A DNA stretch of 64,000 bases from Terriglobia bacterium (GTDB lineage Bacteria > Acidobacteriota > UBA6911), in the NCBI GenBank assembly GCA_020072565.1, contig JAIQGI010000019.1, forward strand, positions 179,473 to 243,472, given 5' to 3'. Both the position numbers and the translations under genes were made by a program. Of this stretch, positions 48,270-54,772 are shown in pieces (the first letter of the stretch is position 1; each line of letters opens with the position of its first letter). The notes under the pieces were generated by a model that saw only the letters and a list, made by a program, of their open reading frames with translations, searched no databases and had not been told where the DNA came from.

Positions 48270-50258
48270 TCACAAAAGGTGTATCTGATAATCGGGTGCC
48301 AGTTTCCTGTCGTTGCCGATTCGCAGCGTGACACGCCGGGCATCGAGCCAGTCCAGGATGGCTAATGCATATTTTCGGCTGGAATCGATTTCATATTTAA
48401 AGTCTGCCGAGTTAAGCACTCCTTTTTCCTGGATGATTGCGACGACCCGGGCTTGCGCCCGATGGAATGATTGTGCACTCAAAACCACGTTTTTTGAAAC
48501 AGAAACCAGCTTTCCCTGGTCAAACAGGTGCTCGAGCACCCGATGGATCTTTTCCTCGGACTCGCTCAGCATGCCGGGCAGCTCATCAGGCCGCGGTGAT
48601 TTGAAGCCCGTTTGCGCGTATATATCGAGCAGACGCCTGATCAAGGGGCCTTCAGCCTGATCCATCATCTCCGCTGCCGCCGGGAGCACTACTTTGTGCC
48701 CTTGAGGACGGATGAGCTCCGCCTGTTCCAGTTCCAGCAACAGCCTGTCCCACAAAGGCGCGGGATAGTTCAATTCCTGGCGCAGCTCCTCACGCCGAAG
48801 ACTCATCGTTTGCTTGGAGTTGCTTGCCTGCAGGATCCGTTCTCGCGCGGCGTCATAGAAAGACCGGTAATTGTGAGCATGTATGAAATATTCTGCCTCC
48901 AAGGCAATCACCAGGCTGTCGCGATTCAGGCGAGGCATGATCCGGCGGATGGTGTCGATGGGCAGCAACGTTCCCGCCGAAATTTCCTGCGGAGAGGCTC
49001 CCATGGGCCTGTCATGGAGCAGGAAATACTCCACTCGCCCGGCATCCCATTGCTCACTCGAGGGAACGTTTTTTTCAAGAAAGGCCTGCTGGGCCATGAG
49101 ATCGTGCGCCTGTTCCTTGCGCGGCAGTCGCCGTGTTTCTTCACTTACCTCCATGATGGTTCCGCCCGCAACCGTCGTTGCAGGCGAGAGGCGCCGGAGA
49201 ATGAATCGGTCGTAAGCCGCTGCGGCGATCGGGCTGTCAAGCAGGATGGTGGCAAAACTCTGCCGGCTGCCGGGGAGGACTTTTTCCTCCAGCAAGTAAA
49301 GCTTGCCTCCTGTTTCGCTGGTGCCGGTGTGAAATTTGATCAATTCAGCATTTTGCAGCGGCCTTTCCAGCCGGCTGACAGCCGTGAGCCTTACCTGGAC
49401 CTGACGAACGGGATGCAGGTAACCCGGCAGGCAGACCACCTGGCCTCGCGCCAATTGCAGTTTGGGCAACTCGGGAATATTCAGAGCCAGGCATTGGCCG
49501 CAACCTCCCTCGCCGGCATCGCGCAGGAATCGTTGGATGCCGCGAATGCGGCCAGTCCCACCGCCGGGGGTTAACTCAACCTGCGCCCCTATCGAAATGG
49601 AGCCATCCACCGGAATCCCGGTGACGACCGTGCCAAAACCGGGGCGGGAGAAGTATTGTGCAACGGGCATCCGGAAAATGCCGCGCCCCCGCGTGGAAAC
49701 ACTGGCCTTCACGCGTTCGACCAGGTGCTCATAGAAAGGCTCAAAACCTTCGAACGTTTCCGAGGAGATCGGGCAGACCGGCGCACCTTCGAAGAGGGTG
49801 CCTTTGAGGAAGGAACGAATCTCCGCGCTGCGCTGCTCAACCAGGACCTTGTCTACCAGGTCGATTTTTGTGAGCGCCACCATGCCGTGGCGCACACCCA
49901 TCATGGACATGATTTCCACGTGTTCTATGGTTTGAGGCATGATGCCGTCGTCGGCGGCTATGACCAGGAGCGCCAGGTCGATGCCGGAGACGCCGGCCAC
50001 CATGGTGCGCACGAACTTTTCGTGACCCGGCACATCGACCACCCCCACGCACAAATTGCCGCCGATCCAGCAGGGAGCAAAACCCAACTCAATGGTGAGG
50101 CCGCGCTCCTGCTCCTCTTTGAGCCGGTCGGTATTGCACCCCGTCAACAGGCGCACGAGCTTGGTCTTGCCGTGATCGACATGGCCGGCCGTCGCCATCA
50201 TCATGATGACGTCGGGATTAAGCTCTGGGCGAAGCAAACCGGGCGGCCGCGGACTCAT
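48270..50258 (-). CDS. selB: Selenocysteine-specific elongation factor SelB
   Basis: About 645 to 662 residues. The GTPase domain shows GHVDHGKTKLV (P-loop), DVPGHEKFVRTM, and LTKIDLVDK (guanine specificity). Beta-barrel domains follow, then the C-terminal winged-helix repeats that bind the SECIS hairpin (RREELRQELNYPAPLWDRLL, and FKYEIDSSRKYALAILDWLD near the end). It delivers Sec-tRNA to UGA codons marked by a SECIS. The first ATG at 50258 is 4 bases after the selD-ahpD stop; an ATG at 50204 would place the P-loop nearer the N-terminus, as in most homologues. It is the third gene of the sel operon. Confidence 0.95.
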   Translation of the reverse strand: MSPRPPGLLRPELNPDVIMMMATAGHVDHGKTKLVRLLTGCNTDRLKEEQERGLTIELGFAPCWIGGNLCVGVVDVPGHEKFVRTMVAGVSGIDLALLVIAADDGIMPQTIEHVEIMSMMGVRHGMVALTKIDLVDKVLVEQRSAEIRSFLKGTLFEGAPVCPISSETFEGFEPFYEHLVERVKASVSTRGRGIFRMPVAQYFSRPGFGTVVTGIPVDGSISIGAQVELTPGGGTGRIRGIQRFLRDAGEGGCGQCLALNIPELPKLQLARGQVVCLPGYLHPVRQVQVRLTAVSRLERPLQNAELIKFHTGTSETGGKLYLLEEKVLPGSRQSFATILLDSPIAAAAYDRFILRRLSPATTVAGGTIMEVSEETRRLPRKEQAHDLMAQQAFLEKNVPSSEQWDAGRVEYFLLHDRPMGASPQEISAGTLLPIDTIRRIMPRLNRDSLVIALEAEYFIHAHNYRSFYDAARERILQASNSKQTMSLRREELRQELNYPAPLWDRLLLELEQAELIRPQGHKVVLPAAAEMMDQAEGPLIRRLLDIYAQTGFKSPRPDELPGMLSESEEKIHRVLEHLFDQGKLVSVSKNVVLSAQSFHRAQARVVAIIQEKGVLNSADFKYEIDSSRKYALAILDWLDARRVTLRIGNDRKLAPDYQIHLL

Positions 50259-50262
50259 AGGA

Positions 50263-51966
50263 TCAGATCTTCAGTTCTTTGCGAATCTCACTATAGAACA
50301 TCATGACGGTGCAGCCGCCGAAAGAGACTGCCAGTTGGACAGCTTCATCGATCTCAGCCGGCGTGATGCCCATGGCGAGTGCTGATTTGACGTGGCTTTT
50401 CATGCAGGGCTCACATCGCTGAACGGCCGAGAGCGCAATGGCCATCAGTTTCTTGGCCCGGCGATCGATCAGACCCGGCTGGTTGGCCGCTTTCATGAAG
50501 TCCTTGAAAAGGGCCAGGCGGTCCTCCTCGGATATCTCAGCTCCCGGCCCCGGCGGGGATGCGCAACAGGCAGATTCAGAGGGGGCGGAGTGACCAGCCG
50601 CGGGATTGGCGGGGTTTCCCTCCTGTCTCGGTTTGGTTGGGACCATGATTTCCTCCGGTGATAGAGGGGACATTCCGCTCTTCCTGCTACTATCGTCCGC
50701 AAGATCAGAATGATACCGGGAATGCGGCATGTCCCCTTTTTCATTTGCGACAAAACGGCCGAGATGTGCATCGACCACGACAACTTCACTTTCAGGACCT
50801 GTCTTTTCCTGGATCCGGCCGATGATCGACGTGGCCTTGTGACCCAGGTTGTGCATCGCTTCAACATATGCCGCGGCCCTCTCCTCAGGCAACGCTACCA
50901 GCAGACCGCCCGAGGTTTGAGGATCATAAAGTAGCGGCAGATCCTGCCCGGCCTCCGGATCGGCTGCCCGAATCCAGGCCATGGCATACTCCTGGTTCCG
51001 TTCAATGGCGCCGGGGAGGATCTCGTTATCAAGACAGGCCCGCACGGCTGCGAAAACGGGAATTCGCGACAAGTCAATCTCGGCAGAAACCCCGCTGGTA
51101 CGGACCATTTCGACGAGGTGGCCTGCCAGGCCGAATCCGGTGATGTCGGTGCAGGCGTGAGCCTGATATTCCTGCATGAGTTCCGCGGCATCCCGGTTGA
51201 GGGTCGCCATGGAAATGCCGGCTTCCTCCAAGGCGCGGGGGACAAGGCGTCCGATCTGCACTCCAAAGGCGATCATTCCGGTTCCAAGCGGTTTGGTCAG
51301 AACCAGCAGGTCCCCGGGCCGGGCCTTTCCCCGCTGAATGACGCTGTCGGTCTGGATAAGCCCCGTGACGGCAAACCCCATCTTGGGTTCCCTGTCGTTC
51401 ATGCTGTGACCGCCGATGAGAGCACATCCGGCTTCGTTGAGTTTGTCGATGCCGCCCCGAAGCATGGTTTCCATCAGGCTGCCGTCAAGATCATCGATCG
51501 GGAAACCAACGACTGAAAGAGCGGTGAGCGGGCGCCCGCCCATGGCATAGACGTCGCTGAGCGAGTTGGCCGCGGCAATCTGTCCAAAGAGATAGGGATC
51601 GTCGACGCAAGGAGTAAAGACGTCGACCGTCTGGACCAGGGCCAGCCCGTCGTCCAGCTGGTAGACACCGCAGTCATCTCCTGCCGCGGCACCCAGGAGC
51701 ACCCTGGGATCGGCCACCGGCGGCAGGTTGCGAAGAATACGGATCAAGTCGCCTTGAGCAATCTTGGAGGCACAACCGGTGTTGCTGACTGTCCGGGTGA
51801 GCGGCACCGTGCTGCCGTGGACCGGCATTTTCTCGCCGGCGCAGGGGCAGACGTTGTGATTGATGAAGATATCGCAGGGACAGCATTTCCTGGGGTCACA
51901 GACGCAGTGCTGTAAAGCCTGCGAGCGTGCCATTACTTTCCGGCGGCGCTGGATATCAACGTTCAT
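50263..51966 (-). CDS. selD: Selenophosphate synthetase SelD fused in frame to an AhpD/carboxymuconolactone decarboxylase-like domain
   Basis: 567 residues. Residues 21 to 42 form a cysteine-rich leader (CVC, CCPC and CPC). SelD proper runs from about 55 to 405: TGCASKIAQGDL holds the active-site Cys65 (Cys, not Sec) and Lys68, with GDDCGVY and the Gly-rich TSGGLLVAL later. After a linker, residues 441 to 567 form an AhpD-like domain with a CEPCMKSH motif (CxxC plus His). Its first Met (50646) has its own strong GGAGGA site, so it may also be made separately. The start overlaps the selA stop by 4 bases. SelD makes the selenium donor for SelA; AhpD-like proteins are thiol redox enzymes. Confidence 0.92.
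   Translation of the reverse strand: MNVDIQRRRKVMARSQALQHCVCDPRKCCPCDIFINHNVCPCAGEKMPVHGSTVPLTRTVSNTGCASKIAQGDLIRILRNLPPVADPRVLLGAAAGDDCGVYQLDDGLALVQTVDVFTPCVDDPYLFGQIAAANSLSDVYAMGGRPLTALSVVGFPIDDLDGSLMETMLRGGIDKLNEAGCALIGGHSMNDREPKMGFAVTGLIQTDSVIQRGKARPGDLLVLTKPLGTGMIAFGVQIGRLVPRALEEAGISMATLNRDAAELMQEYQAHACTDITGFGLAGHLVEMVRTSGVSAEIDLSRIPVFAAVRACLDNEILPGAIERNQEYAMAWIRAADPEAGQDLPLLYDPQTSGGLLVALPEERAAAYVEAMHNLGHKATSIIGRIQEKTGPESEVVVVDAHLGRFVANEKGDMPHSRYHSDLADDSSRKSGMSPLSPEEIMVPTKPRQEGNPANPAAGHSAPSESACCASPPGPGAEISEEDRLALFKDFMKAANQPGLIDRRAKKLMAIALSAVQRCEPCMKSHVKSALAMGITPAEIDEAVQLAVSFGGCTVMMFYSEIRKELKI
50651..50656 (-). promoter_or_regulatory. Internal ribosome-binding site for the AhpD-like domain
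   Basis: GGAGGA lies 4 bases before an in-frame ATG at 50646 inside the fused selD-ahpD frame. Such a site would be pointless unless the AhpD part is, or once was, a separate gene. Confidence 0.55.
50666..50736. repeat. Inverted repeat inside the selD-ahpD linker
   Basis: GGGGACATTCCGC (50666-50678) and GCGGCATGTCCCC (50724-50736) are inverted copies with one mismatch, spaced by 45 bases. The element lies exactly in the linker that joins the SelD and AhpD parts and is read through in frame. It looks like a REP-type insertion that may have removed the original selD stop codon. Confidence 0.55.
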
Positions 51967-53393
51967 GATTGATGAGCAGCCGGGCGCGCGATGTTTCCCA
52001 AAGCGGTCGGGATCTGCTTTTCTTCGTCTTCGAAAACCGTGCGCAGATCGAACAGCACTTCGTCCTGTTCGATGCGTGCGATAATGGGTGGTTCATTCCG
52101 CCGCAGCTGAACATTGAGTGCGTCGGCGGACATCTTTGCCGAACACACTGCCAGCAAAAAAGTCTTCAGCGGGGTGACGGGAAGTGAACCGCCCCCGGTG
52201 GCGCTCTCTCCTTCGATCAGGCGGACTCTGAGTGAGGGGGAGCCGCTCTCGATTTCCTTTTTCAGGCGCAAGGCACGCTGCCGGATGCTTTCGGCACTCA
52301 TGGTGATCATGCGCAGCGTGGGATTGCTCTGGAGCAGAGTTTCGGGTTCCAGAAACAGGCGCAGGGTATGCTCCAGGGTCATGTCGGTCATCTTGCCGAC
52401 GCGCAGCATGCGAGTCAGCGGATGTTTCCTGATCTTTCTTATCAGGTCGCCGCGTCCGGCTATGATACCGGCTTGCGGGCCGCCAATCAGTTTGTCGCCG
52501 CTGAAGCAGACCACATCCGCTCCGGCAGCGATGCTTTCCGGAACCGTGGGTTCGTGGGGAAGCCCGAACGGACGCAGGTCCAGGAGAGCCCCACACCCCA
52601 GGTCGTCAACAACCAGCAAATCCCGCTTCTTTTTGAGCGCCGCCAGCTCTTCCACCGGCACCTCTTTGCTGAAGCCCATCACCCGGTAGTTGCTGGGGTG
52701 GATATGCATGACGGCGCCGGTTTTCTCGCTCAGGGCGTTTTCGTAGTCCCGTAAGTGCGTCTTGTTGGTGGTGCCCACTTCCACGAGGATGGCCCCGCTC
52801 TCCTGAATGCATTCGTGCAGGCGGAAGGAACCGCCAATCTCGATGAGCTGGCCGCGTGAAACGATCACTTCCCGGCCCCGGCAAAGTGCGCTTAATATGA
52901 GCAGGGTGGCAGCGGCATTGTTGTTTACGATCATGGCGGCTTCCGCCGCAGTCAGTTGACAAATCAGCTGCTCGCTCACGAAATTGCGTTTTCCGCGCAG
53001 GCCCGTTGCCATATCAATTTGCAGGTTGCAGCAACGATTGAGTCCGGCCAGAGCATCCACGGCACGCTGGGCAAGCACCGCCCGCCCCAGGCCGGTATGA
53101 AGAATGATGCCGGTCGCATTGACCACGGGCCGAAGCCGCTCGCCTTCAATCTGGAGAAGTGACTCGTTGACTTTTTGAACAATAAGATCGGAAGAGGGGG
53201 GCGCGTCGTCCGGCTTGAGTTGACGACGGTACCCATCGAGCGCTTCCCGGATGGCGTTGAGCACCAGGGGGCGGCCGGACCATCGCAGCATCTCCTGGAC
53301 TTGGGGGTGATCCAGCAAAACCGAAACTGAAGCCAGATGACGCCGCGGGTCATCTGCTGCAGGAGAATGATCAGGATCCTGGCTGTTTTTCAT
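51963..53393 (-). CDS. selA: L-seryl-tRNA(Sec) selenium transferase SelA
   Basis: 476 residues from the ATG at 53393; a frame extension to 53474 adds 27 doubtful residues. The protein matches the usual length of about 460. The N-terminal domain (SVSVLLDHPQVQEMLRW) is typical, INATG-like VVNATGIILHTGLGRA follows, and the PLP lysine sits in CFSGDKLIGGPQAGII. It converts Ser-tRNA(Sec) to Sec-tRNA(Sec) using selenophosphate from SelD. It is the first gene of the operon selA, selD-ahpD, selB, small membrane protein, NapH-like protein. No strong promoter was identified in the 240 bases upstream. Confidence 0.95.
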   Translation of the reverse strand: MKNSQDPDHSPAADDPRRHLASVSVLLDHPQVQEMLRWSGRPLVLNAIREALDGYRRQLKPDDAPPSSDLIVQKVNESLLQIEGERLRPVVNATGIILHTGLGRAVLAQRAVDALAGLNRCCNLQIDMATGLRGKRNFVSEQLICQLTAAEAAMIVNNNAAATLLILSALCRGREVIVSRGQLIEIGGSFRLHECIQESGAILVEVGTTNKTHLRDYENALSEKTGAVMHIHPSNYRVMGFSKEVPVEELAALKKKRDLLVVDDLGCGALLDLRPFGLPHEPTVPESIAAGADVVCFSGDKLIGGPQAGIIAGRGDLIRKIRKHPLTRMLRVGKMTDMTLEHTLRLFLEPETLLQSNPTLRMITMSAESIRQRALRLKKEIESGSPSLRVRLIEGESATGGGSLPVTPLKTFLLAVCSAKMSADALNVQLRRNEPPIIARIEQDEVLFDLRTVFEDEEKQIPTALGNIARPAAHQS

Positions 53394-53529
53394 TTTCTTC
53401 GGATAGGGCCGGAGGGGAATCGGAGGCGCATCGGTTATGAAAACCGTGAGGACGACCGGGACCTCCCACCTCATATCTTGCTACCAGCGATGGTATCTTA
53501 CACTCCGTCGGCGGAGCAAACTAAAAATC

Positions 53530-53668: not shown

Positions 53669-53714
53669 CCGGAAGCAGGAGGCGGGCCCGTGCGGTTCGC
53701 GCTTCCGGTTTTTT
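53669..53714. terminator. Rho-independent terminator between the gene remnant and the MerB-like operon
   Basis: CCGGAAGC (53669-53676) pairs with GCTTCCGG (53701-53708), followed on the plus strand by TTTTTT. It fits the end of the lost plus-strand gene whose stump lies just upstream. On the minus strand the same hairpin lies right after the stop of the small regulator gene and may end the MerB-like operon before selA. Confidence 0.65.
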
Positions 53715-54013
53715 CATTTCAGGCGGGAGCGTCGTTTTAGCCGCGGAGCGGACTCCCTCAGCCGATGACTGGAGGCAGCCGTCAAATCGAGCCCGTACAC
53801 AAGGTTGAGTTGTTCGATTCTCTGCATCGTTTCGGCGCTGAATGGAGCTTTGCCCTCAAAGGCATGCAGGACGATGCCTTCCAGCAGGTCGCCCAGGCTG
53901 CAATCATGATATTCCGCCAGCGCCTTCAGAACTTTGAGGATCCGCTTCTCCATGCGCACACCGGTCTGAACGCGCTCGACCTCCAGTCGCGGTTGCGATT
54001 TCGCCCTGCCCAT
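53714..54013 (-). CDS. Small helical protein co-transcribed with the MerB-like selenoprotein
   Basis: 99 residues from an ATG at 54013 with GAGGTG upstream, 15 bases after the MerB-like stop, so almost surely in one operon. The central part (RMEKRILKVLKALAEYHDCSL, then GDLLEGIVLHAFEGK) is strongly helical and resembles ribbon-helix-helix-like regulators; YGLDLTAASSHRL follows, and the tail is basic (RLKRRSRLK). A DNA-binding role is inferred from this layout only. It could act on the palindrome at the operon promoter. No metal-binding Cys cluster like that of MerR is present; there is one Cys. Confidence 0.75.
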   Translation of the reverse strand: MGRAKSQPRLEVERVQTGVRMEKRILKVLKALAEYHDCSLGDLLEGIVLHAFEGKAPFSAETMQRIEQLNLVYGLDLTAASSHRLRESAPRLKRRSRLK

Positions 54014-54028
54014 GAAAACACACCTCGG

Positions 54029-54772
54029 TTAAAAGTCGAACAGCGCCGACTGCGCGATCCGACTCGAAACTGCACTCTGGTCCAACGACAGGTAGCGCCC
54101 ATCCGCCTGCCTCCGCCTGCTCCGGAATTCTCGCGCGTGTTCTTCTGACCAGAAGAATAGGGAGTTGATTCAATAGTCGTCAATGATGCTGGTTTTGGTG
54201 AACCGGCTCCAGTCGACGTCCGGCTCGAAGATGAGCGGTCCGGCCTGACGATCGGCCACGCCCCAATGCAATTCACTGTTGACCCACAGTTCGATACTCC
54301 GGCCGCAATGTCCGCACTCGGTGAGAAGTTCGGCCTTGAGGAACTCGTTTCGCAGGCGCCCTTGCACGAAGGGCGTGATGAAGGCGTCCTCCGCTCAGGC
54401 ACCCCAGGTCGTTTCACCGGTGCTCAGCCGCAACTGATGCGGGGTGCGGACGCTGGTGACGGGGAAGGCCCACGAGACCCTGCCGCCGCTATCCATGGCC
54501 AGGTAAAAGAGCCCCCTTTCGAGGTCCTGCAGAATCCCGCGCGTCTGCGCCAGGGGCAGCGCCAGGGCCGACGCAATCCGCTCCGGCTCGAGCGGCCGGC
54601 CGGAGTTGCGCGCGAGCTCGCGGACGGCGTATTCCCGGACCCGGCGGCCCGGCCCGGCCAGACGCAGCTGCTCCCTCCGCAACGGCGCCTTGGCGCGCAG
54701 CGCAGCCAGCCATTCGACCGCCGGTTTTTCGATGATGTCGGGCCCCTGTCCCCAGAGCACGGTTTCGGACAT
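54029..54772 (-). CDS. Organomercurial-lyase (MerB)-like protein with two in-frame UGA codons (putative double selenoprotein)
   Basis: Start at 54772 (GGAG 8 bases upstream). The frame is open to a TAA at 54029-54031 except for UGA at 54395-54397 and 54170-54172; read as Sec these give 247 residues with U126 and U201. Residues 1 to 95 form the N-terminal helical domain. TTWGAUAEDAF aligns with the MerB active site W-C-A-L-D, putting U126 at catalytic Cys96 and D129 at catalytic Asp99. DDYUINSLFFWSEEHA aligns with F-C-C-H-V-H-F-F, putting U201 at catalytic Cys159. Sequence after each UGA is clearly coding, down to the last residues (GRYLSLDQSAVSSRIA). Known MerB breaks carbon-mercury bonds with these thiols. 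A second pair, CGHC (153 to 156), is unusual. The sel operon lies immediately downstream. Confidence 0.85.
54140..54157 (-). promoter_or_regulatory. SECIS-like hairpin for the second UGA of the MerB-like gene
   Basis: mRNA sequence UUCUUCU-GGUC-AGAAGAA: a perfect 7-base-pair stem with loop GGUC. It starts 12 bases after the UGA at 54170-54172, with the loop at bases 20 to 23. Both the distance and the G/U-containing loop match the bacterial SECIS pattern; GGUC occurs in the loop of the E. coli fdhF element. Confidence 0.7.
54357..54375 (-). promoter_or_regulatory. SECIS-like hairpin for the first UGA of the MerB-like gene
   Basis: mRNA sequence CGCCCUU-CGUGC-AAGGGCG: a perfect 7-base-pair stem with a 5-base loop carrying G at its second position. 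It starts 19 bases after the UGA at 54395-54397 and the loop begins at base 27. GCGG right after the UGA could pair with CUGC beyond the hairpin as a lower stem. Confidence 0.65.

Follow-up and report, generated by a model that had tools for sequence, protein, structure and literature searches.

Can an organomercurial lyase be built with selenocysteine (Sec) in place of both of its mercury-holding cysteines? In MerB, Cys96 and Cys159 hold the mercury and Asp99 assists proton transfer (PMC4525700). The question is raised by a gene in a 64,000-nucleotide stretch of DNA from a Terriglobia bacterium (GenBank assembly GCA_020072565.1, contig JAIQGI010000019.1, positions 179,473 to 243,472), hereafter the window, in which the frame of a MerB homologue is twice interrupted by UGA. 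The frame runs on the minus strand from an ATG at 54772 to a TAA at 54031-54029 and yields 247 residues once TGA is read through; its internal stops are exactly two, both TGA, at residues 126 and 201, and translation of the plus strand over 54029..54772 gives no such product. The original prediction, made from the letters of the window, had placed a MerB-like frame with two UGA codons here, and its coordinates are right. As judged from its sequence, the gene almost certainly encodes a double-Sec protein, and the predicted function of the product is probably that of an organomercurial lyase.

The likeness to MerB is most evident at the residues that matter for catalysis. The read-through product matches the Pfam MerB family (PF03243) with 41.4 bits against a cut-off of 27, over residues 108-233, as do all eight members of an alignment of the family (A2, in which the row of locus L024 has one extra upstream codon). 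Canonical MerB (PDB 3f0o, 3f2f) has cysteine at the two places where the window protein has UGA: in the HMMER alignment residue 126 falls on Cys96, 129 on Asp99 and 201 on Cys159, in agreement with the earlier matching of the UGA codons to C96-A-L-D99 and C159. Asp99 and Cys117 are both kept, as Asp129 and Cys153, and the four signature positions (96, 99, 117 and 159) are thus all identical or Sec/Cys. The protein is predicted to have the MerB fold, its model (computed with alignment A6, of eight loci and 48 of 104 database proteins) having been matched to known folds. Elsewhere the two diverge, with 14-20% identity and an N-terminal extension of about 20 residues in the window protein that lies outside the match (model range starts 20-25). 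A search of the window's own 7.46-Mb assembly yields one MerB match, with two TGA inside.

Both codons recur in assemblies other than the window's own. Genome searches and one contig scan (run with a single peptide pattern that allowed Cys or Trp in column 126 and was blind to UGA forms, it gave two loci, L024 and L025) found 14 loci in 13 carrier genomes, window included. With hits sorted by reading, carriers make up 8 of 396 genomes in a sample of the phylum, 3 of 38 in the window's class, and 2/162, 3/399 and 2/41 in the classes of genomes G259, G121 and G327; the phylum sample and class samples overlap. Distant MerB-like or unrelated hits were not counted as family (5/13, 1/4, 2/4, 6/9 and 1/3 hit genomes, in the same order), and tblastn found no match in 72,556 plasmid records. 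TGA stands at both codons in ten loci of nine genomes (the window, G259, G121, G379, G327 with two paralogues, G104, G417, G526 and G533). Two named assemblies, Bryobacterales (L024) and Bryobacteraceae (L025), have TGC at codon 126 and TGA at 201, and these two relatives make an acidobacterial form plausible. Partial copies in G164 and G263 cover codon 201 alone and have TGA there, which brings the tally to TGA in 14/14 loci at codon 201, and TGA in ten and TGC in two at codon 126. The G164 copy is without its 5′ part though the contig continues, and may be decayed; the G263 and G104 copies run off the ends of their contigs. In G327 the paralogues lie at L029:5070-5810 and L030:8623-9375, and the second groups on a quick tree with two single-Sec entries, one labelled Deltaproteobacteria.

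Protein databases give a corresponding picture. Two protein searches, in one of which scoring was limited to the 7,998 candidates with the most words in common, together gave 104 proteins. Cys is absent from column 201 in all of them, and in the HMMER alignment it occurs there only in canonical MerB. Cys126 is present in 37, all of which stop exactly at residue 200; a further 27 stop exactly at residue 125, and 38 have Trp at both places, probably as code-4 gene calls of UGA; of the remaining two, one has Trp126 and ends at 188 and the other ends at 200. Homologues therefore carry Cys or UGA at column 126 and UGA, or probable code-4 Trp, at column 201, a comparison that the original prediction had proposed. 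On the tree, which has 79 rows (11 of the 14 loci and 68 of the 104 proteins, leaving out the short entries P0035, P0070-P0077 and P0078-P0104 and the partial loci of G104, G164 and G263), column 126 needs seven Cys/Sec changes, which indicates that the two residues were exchanged there repeatedly. Predicted Sec is thus encoded at 201 in every locus read, and column 126 switches between Sec and Cys.

Downstream of each UGA lies a predicted hairpin of the bacterial selenocysteine insertion sequence (SECIS) type. Under the published rule the loop has 3-9 nt and a G within the first two, the stem has 4-16 bp, the distance from the UGA is 16-37 nt and the energy is -7.5 kcal/mol or lower (PMC13188914); both window hairpins, with loops of 5 and 4 nt, fit it in loop, stem and spacing. 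The first (CGCCCUU-CGUGC-AAGGGCG) is paired in 67 of 70 cells across the ten double-UGA loci, with two-sided changes in three cells at two pairs, and the second (UUCUUCU-GGUC-AGAAGAA) in 97 of 98 cells across 14 loci, the only two-sided change there being in L025. The first hairpin is damaged in both Cys126 genes, which have lost two and three of its seven pairs, the loop-adjacent pair included in each; the second is kept. When 246 codons of nine double-UGA genes were scanned under the loop and spacing criteria, a hairpin of at least 6 bp was common to eight or more genes in just two stretches, codons 123-129 and 195-202, which correspond to the two UGA sites and the neighbours allowed by the spacing range; at seven of nine genes codons 74-76 and 80 also qualify. 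The background is considerable, since such a hairpin occurs at 47% of codon positions when 5 bp are required, at 27% with 6 bp and at 13% with 7 bp.

The reading frame is constrained throughout. In the close pair G526/G533 the ratio of nonsynonymous to synonymous change (dN/dS) is 0.16 both ahead of the first UGA and between the two, and 0.06 past the second; in four other pairs 11 of 12 segments have values no higher than 0.53, one segment being saturated. Within the hairpin region synonymous choice, on the codons compared, hardly varies: 13 of 14 loci use UCA for Ser209, a codon with a share of 11% among the 263 Ser codons of ten window genes. The nine other loci with both TGA codons, the low dN/dS and the hairpin scan together argue that the double UGA is not chance.

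Machinery for decoding UGA is also present. As originally stated, selA, selD and selB lie downstream of the lyase gene on the same strand, each above an NCBIfam cut-off (Table 1). Neither Rfam nor ARAGORN gave a match in the window; the tRNA-Sec gene whose presence the original prediction depended on (73.5 bits, anticodon tca) is on another contig of the genome. All ten carrier genomes tested with the Rfam model and ARAGORN, a tally that leaves out G417, G526 and G533, have a tRNA-Sec with this anticodon. SelA is found in 7/8 carriers of the phylum sample and exceeds its cut-off in 249/396 genomes of that sample. UGA is at the same time an ordinary stop: TGA ends seven of ten window genes, release factor 2 (prfB) is present in the window genome (513.7 bits), the lyase members of G379, G327, G104 and L025 themselves end in TGA, and Trp codons elsewhere in the lyase gene are TGG.

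Table 1. Positions in the window of the lyase gene, its recoding elements and the genes beside it
Feature	Position	Strand	Remarks
MerB-like selenoprotein gene	54029..54772	-	247 codons + TAA, two in-frame TGA; from translation, PF03243, model and fold match
UGA codon 126	54395..54397	-	Place of MerB Cys96; followed by A-E-D
UGA codon 201	54170..54172	-	Place of MerB Cys159; followed by I-N-S-L-F-F
Asp129	54386..54388	-	Aligned with proton-shuttling Asp99 of MerB (HMMER); invariant in three alignments
Cys153	54314..54316	-	Aligned with Cys117 of MerB (HMMER); invariant in three alignments
SECIS-type hairpin 1 (predicted)	54357..54375	-	7-bp stem, CGUGC loop beginning 26 nt past UGA 126
SECIS-type hairpin 2 (predicted)	54140..54157	-	7-bp stem, GGUC loop beginning 19 nt past UGA 201
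Small gene, weakly ribbon-helix-helix-like, possible regulator	53714..54013	-	99 aa; RHH_4 18.8 bits, below cut-off 25
selA, Sec synthase	51963..53474	-	TIGR00474 539.5 bits, cut-off 267.9
selD with AhpD-like C-terminal domain	50263..51966	-	TIGR00476 351 bits, cut-off 125; TIGR00778 39.8 bits, cut-off 27.8
selB, Sec-specific elongation factor	48270..50258	-	TIGR00475 284.5 bits, cut-off 242.25

With Asp kept and both Cys replaced by Sec, the simplest reading is an enzyme in which two selenolates take part in protonolysis of the carbon-mercury bond. Each UGA would be decoded as Sec via its own predicted hairpin just downstream. By analogy with MerB, R-Hg+ would be held by Sec201 and Sec126 until a proton from Asp129 freed R-H, after which thiols or selenols of the cell would take up the Hg(II). 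Compared with thiols, selenols have the greater affinity for mercury, and at neutral pH they have already lost their proton; conceivably, two selenolates may help cleavage or may hold Hg(II) too tightly.

Several observations weigh against this picture. The window protein misses the NCBIfam cut-offs for MerB (30.6 of 200 bits for NF033555, 30.1 of 193 for NF009710), and the Trp entries among the database proteins are taken as UGA only by way of the probable code-4 calls. The second hairpin has an energy of -5.6 kcal/mol over 27 nt and -6.2 over 40 nt, weaker than the published rule (the 43-nt stretch holding the first reaches -16.3 kcal/mol), fold energies compared with shuffles are inconsistent among UGA sites (z from +1.09 to -3.12), and two-sided changes are few, at three cells for site 126 and one for site 201. 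As energies by themselves single out neither hairpin and 5-bp hairpins are common, the case for the hairpins is one of conservation. In G104 the profile search gave no SelA match. Finally, no mer operon is seen with the lyase: open reading frame (ORF) maps of the loci, read by eye, have no mer genes near it, and MerA exceeds the TIGR02053 cut-off (454.45 bits) in none of the 13 carrier genomes, although all of them have weaker matches, up to 408.3 bits. The picture therefore does not account for what becomes of Hg(II), and how MerB keeps working without MerA is a question also raised in PMC8261052.

This want of mer genes and MerA would suit a double-Sec lyase of the same chemistry with another natural substrate, organotin, organolead or methylated arsenic in place of mercury, and SaoL, a MerB-like selenoprotein, is likewise named a lyase of "organometallics" without proven substrate in its entry in PMC13188914; yet the retention of all four MerB signature positions, among them an Asp that is Ser in MerB2 (PDB 5c17), makes such a substrate unlikely, if still a serious contender. 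It is more doubtful that the MerB-like fold is a selenol trap or sensor that binds a metal or organometal without cleaving it, perhaps for regulation or storage, since the catalytic Asp is invariant in the alignments and would be needless for mere trapping. The use of UGA as an ordinary stop in this genome could be taken to mean that it mainly terminates translation here as well, with full protein made only when selenium is ample and truncated forms also functional, but the strong constraint after codon 201 and the loss of most of the MerB domain from a form cut at 125 leave little room for a selenium-dependent two-product gene. A pseudogene, sequencing errors or UGA read as tryptophan, the last in keeping with the Trp entries, are scarcely credible given the same two codons in ten loci, constraint on all three gene segments, the regular use of TGA as a stop with release factor 2 present, and a tRNA-Sec in every genome tested. 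On balance, the probable identity of the gene is that of a MerB homologue in which UGA likely encodes Sec at both catalytic cysteine places, each with a predicted hairpin, and whose product is a predicted organomercurial lyase.

The original prediction had referred to computational reports of MerB-like selenoproteins in anaerobes. In the portions consulted, PMC13188914 and PMC9312934 have one such entry each; that of PMC13188914 is SaoL (NF040728, of a Sec-assisted organometallic system), likewise predicted from UGA, and its motif CU and value of 1, read from the entry apart from its column heading, are taken as one Sec. That reference is thus partly right, for MerB-like selenoproteins as such, but the listed protein apparently has a single Sec where the window protein has two UGA codons, and with 23.1 bits the window protein stays below the 140 that the SaoL model requires. 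Two Sec per protein are also known from MbdU and further double selenoproteins (NF045648 etc.), some of them metal-related by name (PMC13188914); in NCBIfam 20.0, searched with E up to 1, the window protein does not hit NF045648. No double-Sec MerB came up in full-text searches pairing MerB or lyase names with selenoprotein or selenocysteine, nor by looking up terms in parts of PMC13188914, PMC9312934, PMC12013277, PMC2398784 and PMC5029168.

A second, more distant MerB-like group was also encountered (L019, L055, L061, L062, L063, L065, L066 and L069; motif FTU..LLFRSE). It has UGA at the Cys159 place only, with Cys kept at the Cys96 place, and scores 20.7-32.6 bits to the double-UGA family profiles in the genome searches. 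The UGA is followed by TTCCGGTCGGA in 8/8 loci, giving the same GGUC loop as hairpin 2. Genomes G121 and G533 carry both MerB-like Sec groups. G185 (L020/L069) has a UGA-containing member of the second group and SelA matches, but its best tRNA-Sec match is 47.4 bits and is called tRNA-Ser by ARAGORN; the absence of tRNA-Sec is an assembly gap or a real oddity.

Around the lyase, little is shared. The ribbon-helix-helix-like gene, which had been put forward as a small helical regulator, stays below its family cut-off and adjoins the lyase in only three of 14 loci, 15 nt downstream in the window, overlapping the lyase stop in L025 and divergent in G121; it occurs in four of 13 carrier genomes, and in that of L024 it lies elsewhere (L077), without a lyase in the 3.2 kb fetched around it. 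The ORF maps reveal no other shared neighbour. As a conserved partner the sel operon fared no better: with selA, selD and selB of the window as queries, tblastn gave no match in the fetched flanks of the 13 other loci (L024-L032, L035, L079-L081; stretches of 4.2 to 17.5 kb), so its position beside the lyase in the window is probably incidental. The AhpD-like domain (TIGR00778) at the C terminus of SelD spans residues 499-544, and a genome search found two selA copies, that of the window (51963-53474, 539.6 bits) and another at G000:C23:82892-84256 (541.3 bits).

Such genes fall into a blind spot, in that gene callers stop at UGA and survey filters demand cysteine. The entries P0001-P0104 are cut exactly at UGA or probably translated with code 4, and automatic annotation hides the double-UGA family. 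In the survey of PMC8261052, MerB homologues had to pass a screen for Cys96, Asp99, Cys117 and Cys159; the Acidobacteria row of its table has the entries 7, -, -, -, where the first column is MerA and the third, from the row apart from its headings, is taken to be MerB. With cysteine screening and cut or probably misread entries, the reach of methylmercury breakdown may be underestimated. The balance tips, if only slightly, towards a family of organomercurial lyases that are obligate selenoenzymes, with Sec in place of both bond-breaking cysteines; it would be the first demethylase to work with two selenolates, would occur here and there in several bacterial lineages with no mer operon, and would escape merB surveys. 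If this is true, nature would have supplied, in the two-selenolate enzyme, a way to ask whether selenium makes carbon-mercury cleavage faster or the release of mercury slower, a question made directly testable by the existence of natural Sec/Sec and Cys/Sec forms.
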